A stretch of DNA of 64,000 nucleotides, taken from contig CM019230.1 of assembly GCA_009741485.1 (NCBI GenBank), positions 5,056,377 to 5,120,376 of the forward strand. The letters run 5' to 3'. This document shows, piece after piece, positions 31,701-34,700 of the stretch; position 1 is the first letter of the stretch, and the number at the start of each line of letters is the position of its first letter. The notes under the pieces were generated by a model. That model had not been told where the DNA came from. It did not search any database and worked only from the letters and a program-made list of their open reading frames with translations. Both the position numbers and the translations under genes were made by a program. The DNA is from Malurus cyaneus samueli (taxonomy: Eukaryota; Chordata; Aves; Passeriformes; Maluridae).

Positions 31701-34700
31701 GCTCCAAACCCATTTCCCAGATGGTTTTTTTTTTTTTTTTCAAATATTTCAAGCTCTGGCTGCTCTGAGCTGGGCTTGGGGCTGCAGAGCACAGATTTTG
31801 TGGTGCCTGTGGTGAGTGCTGCTGGAGCAGGGAAATGATGGCAACCCTGCAGTGCAACCCCTGCCTGGATGGGGTGAATTCCCTGCCTGCCATCCCAGGG
31901 GAAAACACACTGGGGCTGTGCCAGCTGGTGACTGAAATCCCTACAATCACAGAAAAATTGCCCTGCTTGAGGTACCCAGAGCAGAGATGGGATCCTGATC
32001 CAAAACCAGGGGTGTGGGGAGTGTTTGCAAATGTTGTGTGGGCTGATTTGCCACTGGCTAATCGTGATCCTTCCCTCCATCCTTTTCCACATTGAGCTGA
32101 TCCCCTATAACTATGGTTAATTGCAATCTTTCACCCTTTTTAAAGTTCAGCCGACCCCTATAACAATGGCTAATTGTAAATACGTCCACCCTTTCCTAGT
32201 CTGAGCTGATCCCCTATAACCAAGGTTAACTGTAATCTTTCCCTTCACGTTTTCCAGGTTGAGCTGATCCTCTATAACCAGGTTAATATTGATCTTCATC
32301 CTTTTCCAGGTTCAGCTGATCCCCTATAACCATAGTTAATTGCAATCTTTCACCCTTTTTTAGGTTCCACTGATCCCCTATAACCATGGTTAATTGTAAT
32401 CTCTTCCTTCATCCTTTTCCAGGTTCAGCTGATCCCCTATAATCAAGGTTAATTGTGATCTTTCACCTTTTTTTAGGTTCTGCTGATCCTATATAACCAT
32501 GGCTAATTGTGCTCTTTCACCCTTTTGTAGGTTCAACTGATCCACTATAACCATGAGCTCTACACAAACATCACAGAAGCAGCAAAGAGTCCCAACGGCT
32601 TGGTGGTAGTTTCCATATTTATGAAAGTAAGTATTTGGTACTACATATTCTCAATATTCAGAAATATAAACTTTCCCCTGAGCTGTAATTCAGGAGCTGG
32701 GCTCCTCATTATGCCACAGCAATGGCCAGAGGCTCTGTTGTGCAATCCAGAGACAGCTCCATCCTGAACTGAGCACGGCATCTCTGCTCCAAAGCTTTCA
32801 CAATGTAAGGGGAATTAAAAGGGATAAGGGAGGGGGAGAAAAAAAAACCCTGACATCATAAACATCACTCATAATGCTTTGATGGCTGTGACAGAAGTGT
32901 CCAGCTTTGCAGATTTGGTGTTTCTTCATTAAATTTATCCATCTAAACTCTCCTGGTAGGTTGAGGCTCTGGGAAAGAGGGCATGTCATGCTGATGTGTC
33001 AAAGCCAGCAAAATCAGTTTTTCTCCTGGTGTTATTTAAAACATCCTGAACTATCAAAACTGAAAGATCATTAAAAGTATAACTTCTAATACCTTCCATA
33101 TCTCAGAGCTGCACAGACATGTGAATATTTTATTTAGTCTGCATCCTGTTCCATTCAAGGTGCATGGTTAGGTCTATAATTTATAGCAATCTAGGTCTGG
33201 ACTCAAGATTTCATTATTTTCTCCAACCTCTTTAACTACACTGGAGAAACCTTTTCTCTCATTTTATATGGCAGAAATTGTATGTATTTGTCACCTTTAA
33301 ATGTTATCAATATTCTGCCATTATGCTTTTGTTTCATCAATCTAAATAAGTGAGAATTTCTGAGCCACACTGAAATTCACCTCATCCTTGGGTATGGGAT
33401 ATTTTTGGTTTTCCTTCATAGTCTAATCCCATTTCATAAATCTCCTAACAAAGCATTAACCTCAGAATTAAAACATGCACTTCACAGACTATACTGAGCA
33501 ATTAGATGTAAAAGGGCAATTTTCACACAGGTCAAATATTTAAGGAAGATATTTAGGCTATCTTTATTTTTCCATCCAAAAAGTATTATGTTAGGACCCA
33601 ACAAGCTGACTTGAATTCATGAAAAAGGGAAAAATTAAAGAGAAGGCAGAGGGAATATTGTCAATATTTAGAAATGCCTGCAGGGAGGTGTCCAAGGCTG
33701 CTGAGCAACAGGAAAGAGGCAACAAGGGGGCAGAAATTGAAACTTGGGAAGTTCCACCTAAACTGTGTTACCCAGATATAAACAGAGGAAGAGAGCTTCT
33801 ATATGCAATTGAAATGGCCTGCTTCAAGGAAATCATCTTTATTAATAAATAAAGTAATAGAATACTTAAGAAAATCCTGCCTAATTGTATCAACCACCTG
33901 CAAATCCCGTCAAAGCTCTTGGAGAAGAAACCTGTGCTCAGGCTTTTGTTCAGGCATGAATTTCCATTCACCGTGTTCTCCCATCCCTGTTTTTTATTTA
34001 TTTTACCAATTTTCTATCAAGCTTCATTAGACAAACAACCAAATAATTATTTCCTTCTCCCACAACAGTGAAAAAAAAGGCAGAACCCCATTGGAGGAGT
34101 ATCAGGAGAGAGAGTGGGCGTGTGTGTGCACACGTGGAAGAGCTGCAGTTCTGGCAAGGAAATGTTTGTGAGAAGATTCTGACCTTGTGCATTTTCTCTT
34201 CTGTAGGTATCTGAATCATCAAATCCATTTCTAAATCGTATGCTTAACAGAGACACCATAACAAGAATAACGTATAAGAGTAAGTTTCTTTTCATTTCCT
34301 CTGGTGGCAGCTGGGTTCTTTCAGTGTCAAACAACACATTTAGGGATTCTGAAATGAGAGGATCATAACTGCTTTGTGATGGGCAGGAATGCCAGGTCTG
34401 CATGGTGACTCAGGAATGTGAGAAACCTCTTAAAGTCATCACTTTATCAAATGGATTGGGAGCTTCAAAGTCTGTTTTATGTCTGAAGGTGCAACAGATT
34501 AATGAAATTACATTTGACACATGAATATACCATGCTCACCCAGAATGCTCAGGAGGAGCTGCCCACTGACAGCAACAGTAGGGACACGTGGAGCAGCCTG
34601 GATTAAATCAGATCAGGTTTGTCAAGATGCTGCACCATTAACTGGATTTAGTGTCCATCAGTGTTTTCTTTGTGCACAGAAGAGTTACAGCATTCCCATT

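Follow-up and report, generated by a model that had tools for sequence, protein, structure and literature searches.

Previously described systems

Duplicated splice sites reportedly compete with one another, with exon sequence deciding the outcome; the work is that of Reed and Maniatis (1986), whose substrates are said to have been artificial, with two sites, whereas the locus described here is a natural array of nine copies. A paper of 1995, judging by its title, reportedly deals with several splice sites provided by a minisatellite; these were reportedly donors, whereas the array at CA10 presents acceptors.

The system closest to our locus is exon stuttering, known from chicken (PMC12954441, Genome Biol Evol 2026), in which the edge of an exon, together with its donor or acceptor, is copied in tandem into the adjacent intron. 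According to that paper, the exon itself stays intact, stuttering blocks may yield alternative transcripts, and 115 genes are listed; 190 of the 236 stuttered introns are situated on GC-rich dot chromosomes and 46 elsewhere. The screen used there required blastn-short matches to reach 20 nt and 42.1 bits, as a cut-off against noise rather than a definition of the phenomenon. A second related system is found in the human genes UBC and VCX3A, whose tandem repeats contain dual-specific splice sites (PMC10809524). The phrase 'tandem splice acceptors' occurs in PMC5555464 and PMC2374985; our literature search returned no paper on duplicated or multiple acceptors together with repeats, nor on recursive splicing together with CA10.

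The array analysed here lies at the acceptor of a CA10 exon in the window (the whole analysed stretch of 64 000 nt). It resembles exon stuttering in that the copies span the exon border including the splice site region (with AG in six of the eight upstream copies) and in that the exon is intact. The exon part of 25 nt and the eight copies compare with 20–187 bp and 1–44 copies in stuttering, and the divergence of copies from their consensus (7–20%) compares with <20% in the PHF8 example (PMC12954441). Still, the array does not pass the published screen, its best blastn-short match scoring 34.2 bits over 25 nt vs the cut-off of 42.1; the G+C content, 40.7% in the window and 40.1% in the array, is also unlike that of the GC-rich dot chromosomes which are typical, though not required, for stuttering. 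A further difference from the stuttering cases, to the extent that they are described there, is that a branch-point word and a pyrimidine tract are present in all nine modules (with AG in seven). With UBC and VCX3A the locus shares a splice site at AG|GT once per tandem unit; the UBC repeat is coding and removal of a unit preserves the frame, whereas in CA10 the copies lie in the intron and run into stops (PMC10809524). An AG|GT that is donor-like, as in the dual-specific sites, is found in CA10 only in a second array with a 162-nt unit. The original prediction knew of no description of the array; its kind has since been described as exon stuttering, though the main text of PMC12954441 does not name CA10. 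We think it likely that the main array represents exon stuttering of a CA10 acceptor, nearly neutral, with the last copy used for the most part.

The CA10 gene in the window

By protein similarity, the gene carrying both arrays is CA10: hand-joined exons of the window are matched by turkey CA10 with 99% identity over 235 residues and by a cat CA10 with 98%. The best match is to a bird, and parts of two avian protein models (Geothlypis, Accipiter) align with intronic regions of the window, so that the DNA is likely avian. The exon that follows the main array has 94% identity over 34 residues to human CA10; it is open in frame and itself intact. The exons are as follows.

4552..4737, + strand: CA10 exon VSGTMYN...QAFSGE, preceding the exon with the main array; 186 nt, complete codon at its end
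32531..32626, + strand: CA10 exon with the main array at its acceptor; 96 nt (32 codons), donor GTAAGT
34207..34279, + strand: CA10 exon, acceptor without array
39682..39836, + strand: CA10 exon; a T/G-rich low-complexity array (39456-39591) stops ~90 nt upstream
42367..42541, + strand: CA10 exon; an array of 16 nt x 18.6 (41970-42267) stops ~100 nt upstream, not spanning the acceptor
43423..43445, + strand: last coding exon of CA10, VNEWLLK, stop TAA; an array of 66 nt x 2 (43269-43401) stops ~21 nt upstream, not spanning the acceptor

Tandem arrays, 29 after merging, occupy 6.5% of the window; for comparison, the medians of intron repetitiveness given in the stuttering paper are 7–93% on dot chromosomes and near zero on others (PMC12954441). 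Two of the six CA10 acceptors are within an array (rotation P 0.035-0.09; the last acceptor was entered in the array-clustering test as 43420, not 43423).

Five of the six acceptors have an array that spans them or comes within 100 nt upstream, with rotation P ~0.002; this count was made post hoc and one of the arrays is the T/G low-complexity one. Within 100 nt downstream of the five CA10 donors, arrays were found in no case at score 50 and in one case at score 30 (short periods).

Several other observations concern the gene and its surroundings. The window encodes NITEAA in exon 32531-32626 and DNYRPVQ in exon 42367-42541, vs NVTEAA and DNFRPVQ in the bird CA10 models examined that cover these sites. 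Annotated CA10 models of Motacilla, Geothlypis and Pelodiscus have extra residues before VQLI; those of the Geothlypis trichas model resemble a translation of 14751-14930 (41% over 71 aligned columns, E 3e-6), a region of the CA10 intron that could possibly be a cassette exon or a repeat. The N-terminal part of the Accipiter nisus CA10 model, which joins VQLI directly, has 63% protein identity over 35 residues to 31417-31521, where stops are present; candidate readings of this region are a conserved intronic stretch and a lost alternative first exon. A telomere-like interstitial (TTAGGG)n array (CTAACC x 22, 77% matches) was seen at 250-381.

Anatomy of the main array

Tandem Repeats Finder (TRF) reported the array at 32081-32555 with period 54 and 8.6 copies, and at 32055-32555 with periods 113 and 167. 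The unit runs from a YTAAY branch-point word through a pyrimidine tract and AG to ~25 nt of exon start, which we call the head. Its modules, with acceptor matrix scores, are listed below.

32055..32555, + strand: main array with nine junction-spanning modules, unit 52-59 nt: eight copies upstream, then the true acceptor with its exon head
32057..32115, + strand: copy 1, CTAAT, junction ends in AC (AG absent), head 32091
32116..32168, + strand: copy 2, TTAAT, junction ends in AA (AG absent), head 32145 with a 1-nt deletion
32169..32224, + strand: copy 3, CTAAT, AG at 32198-32199 followed by TCT, head 32200, score 6.67
32225..32280, + strand: copy 4, TTAAC, AG|GTT, junction 32257|32258, score 10.39
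32282..32334, + strand: copy 5, TTAAT, AG|GTT, junction 32309|32310, score 11.81
32335..32388, + strand: copy 6, TTAAT, AG|GTT, junction 32363|32364, score 9.62; the copy nearest to the true junction (87%)
32389..32447, + strand: copy 7, TTAAT, AG|GTT, junction 32422|32423, score 11.81
32448..32501, + strand: copy 8, TTAAT, AG|GTT, junction 32476|32477, score 9.57; 54 nt (in frame) upstream of the true site
32502..32530, + strand: tail of the true acceptor, CTAAT, pyrimidine tract, GTAG, score 9.57; exon head from 32531

The anatomy agrees with the original prediction, which had described an eight-copy array directly before a CA10 exon, a unit spanning the intron–exon junction with ~25 nt of exon head, and the exon as the head of a ninth unit. 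The eight heads, at 32091-32477, follow one another at 54, 55, 58, 52, 54, 59 and 54 nt, with 54 nt from the last one to the exon. A branch-point-like word with a pyrimidine tract had been proposed as well, and YTAAY is indeed found in each of the nine modules, the branch A being 23-29 nt upstream of the final base of the intron with no AG in between. Most copies were said to keep AG: six of the eight upstream copies do (seven of nine modules with the true site), the AG ends at 32257, 32309, 32363, 32422 and 32476 being exactly those predicted and a sixth lying at 32199 (AG|TCT). The five copies near the exon have AG|GTT, and the two farthest are decayed, also as proposed. In six of the eight upstream heads CCC stands where the exon has CAC (His), so that this codon is not kept.

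A further decayed head at ~32042 was considered and rejected as weak, 7% of shuffles being equally good. The predicted RNA folding energy of the main array was no better than that of shuffled sequences (z 0.40; 63 of 100 shuffles at least as good), and exact matches of the array copies in viral contigs numbered zero.

Chance controls and history of the array

Chance is excluded as the source of the exon-like heads. A 23-nt head pattern with up to three mismatches had eight matches in the window (seven upstream heads and the exon) vs none in 100 shuffles; the head at 32145 escapes this search because of its 1-nt deletion. Ungapped identity to the 25-nt exon head was 19-23 in seven of the eight upstream copies, while the best values in 20 shuffled windows were 16-18, which bears out the claim that the heads are closer to the exon than chance; the head at 32145 reaches 20/25 only with a 1-nt gap. 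In a BLASTN search with a junction-spanning query (35 nt of intron and 25 nt of exon) all eight upstream copies were found, with E-values from 2e-4 to 2e-16. These identities, and the junction register common to the copies, make it scarcely credible that an ordinary intronic minisatellite happens to abut the exon and that its heads resemble the exon by chance, even though the window contains 29 merged arrays and finding two of six acceptors within arrays departs only mildly from expectation.

Tandem repeats are easily misassembled and we have dealt with a single sequence, so read collapse or duplication errors could be thought to have produced the array. We regard this as very improbable: artefactual repeats should be near identical, whereas the copies differ by 11-30% and in length, and the exon and its reading frame are intact.

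Pairwise identity among the modules is 70-89%, with the closest pairs being 2/6 (89%), 5/7 (87%), 6/8 (87%) and 6/true junction (87%). The dimer-like closeness of 5/7 and 6/8 fits amplification in blocks. If the neutral rate in birds is taken as ~2 per site and billion years, these identities suggest an array age of tens of millions of years, an estimate that gene conversion would upset.

A second array at the preceding exon

An array that spans the acceptor of the preceding CA10 exon was missed by the original prediction.

4067..4559, + strand: second array across an acceptor, with a 162-nt unit in ~three copies, reaching 8 nt into the CA10 exon at 4552

Its decoy junctions are 4228|4229 and 4390|4391 (CAG|GTCAGTGG), with the true junction at 4551|4552, and the exon itself begins CAG|GTCAGTGG. 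The copies are 85-91% identical, a junction query at exon 4552 recovers both upstream ones, and the decoys at 4229 and 4391 score 9.05 vs 9.99 for the true site. For the five CA10 donor junctions queried we found no donor-side copies. A comparison of the two arrays with each other scored 19.0 vs a shuffled mean of 16.8. There are 20 CpG in 4067-4551 vs 3.3 expected from the window.

The second array is where harmless stepwise (recursive) splicing, in which a copy serves as acceptor before being spliced again, would be most plausible. Its CAG|GTCAGT lies at the 99.3rd percentile as a donor and at the 97.5-98.6th as an acceptor, which by sequence qualifies it as a dual site and resembles the dual-specific sites of PMC10809524. 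A YTNAY word is absent, however, within 60 nt of all three acceptors of this array, the true one included. The original prediction had offered recursive-type handling for the main array, where every GT of the 54-nt units ranks no higher than the 90th percentile of donors and the acceptor-then-donor idea thus finds no footing. Taken together, we judge stepwise splicing to be quite unlikely.

Strength of the decoys and consequences of their use

Acceptors were scored over 15 positions by an approximate, rounded matrix, not by MaxEnt or a deep model. With that approximate matrix, four of the five AG|GTT decoys of the main array (copies 4 to 7) are above the true site and one (copy 8) is level with it, in line with the proposal that several decoys are as strong as the true site. 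The true site, in its turn, is the lowest of the four validly scored real CA10 acceptors (the others having 9.99, 12.11 and 13.11). Given five decoys at or above the true site and a true site that is the weakest real acceptor, steady use of decoys has to be taken seriously.

The six AG-bearing decoys sit 54, 108, 167, 221, 273 and 331 nt upstream of the true site. The last codon of the preceding exon is complete. Followed from each of the eight upstream junctions, the frame reaches a stop in all eight; for five of the six AG-bearing decoys the first in-frame stop is the TAA within the branch-point word of the next copy, copy 4 being the sole one with its first stop elsewhere. Such messages would be expected to undergo nonsense-mediated decay. 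One could imagine, then, a brake on expression, in which the decoys take a steady share of splicing that depends on copy number, the resulting messages run into a stop and are degraded, and the length of the array tunes the dose of CA10. The decoy scores would suit such a brake, as would the branch-point word of each decoy with no AG before the junction, the stops in all decoy frames, and an excess of TCTTT (5 vs 1.0 expected) and TCTT (7 vs 2.4) in the array, partly one unit counted repeatedly; other words resembling sites of pyrimidine-tract proteins are not enriched (CTCT, 3 vs 2.5; TTCT, 1 vs 3.6), which counts against it.

Selection and protein models

Conservation was counted over the eight upstream copies in a hand-adjusted alignment, with few sites and little power. 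Agreement with the consensus was 14/16 (0.875) in the AG columns and 357/411 (0.869) in all other columns; it was 37/40 in the branch core, 157/173 in the rest of the head and 98/118 in the tract, and 58% of random column pairs were kept as well as the AG pair. That AG is conserved no better than other columns is as expected without selection. Nothing in these counts suggests selection for or against the decoy AGs, and weak selection either way would be compatible with them.

We examined 27 CA10 proteins (13 of 301 matches to the joined exons and 14 of 56 matches to a query with the decoy peptide at its end); 23 were from birds and 12 cover the exon start. No decoy peptide (VQLIP type) was present among the 27, a weak test given that the products would be short-lived. 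Precisely the 96-nt exon that follows the main array is absent from two gene models of Vidua (P0048, P0049); these are annotations, and such skipping could reflect weak recognition of the exon in some songbirds.

The lack of excess conservation of AG and the absence of the decoy peptide, weak as the latter test is, both weigh against the brake, which we consider unlikely. The same two results leave the regulated or length-dependent exon inclusion of the original prediction without support from the sequence. A natural rheostat, to which each unit would add one more acceptor ending at the next branch-point TAA, so that length would set the fraction of CA10 wasted, with the two arrays acting in series, appears to us rather improbable.

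Origin and significance of the arrays

Under the exon stuttering that we favor, the eight upstream copies, of which six are complete acceptor modules by sequence and the two farthest lack AG, would have arisen by tandem duplication of the junction, through slippage or unequal exchange. The array of 162-nt units before exon 4552 would have come from the same process. Splicing would mostly pick the last copy because it is the sole copy joined to the full exon, with its enhancer-like words GAA and AGAAG that are absent from the array, and because it is nearest to the 5′ splice site by which the exon is defined. GAA occurs 0 times in 476 nt of array vs 10.2 expected (the array being one unit counted repeatedly) and twice in the 71-nt exon body. 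Occasional use of a decoy would produce a message that is presumably degraded, costing transcripts with no lasting altered protein.

With the likelihood given above, exon stuttering thus extends to a neuronal gene in AT-richer DNA, at a score that the published screen would have discarded, so it may not be confined to dot chromosomes. Nine acceptor modules of such similarity, all having a branch-point word and seven an AG, amount to a natural experiment on the choice of 3′ splice site by the spliceosome. The last copy is likely the one mostly used, with the decoys costing at most some wasted transcripts.
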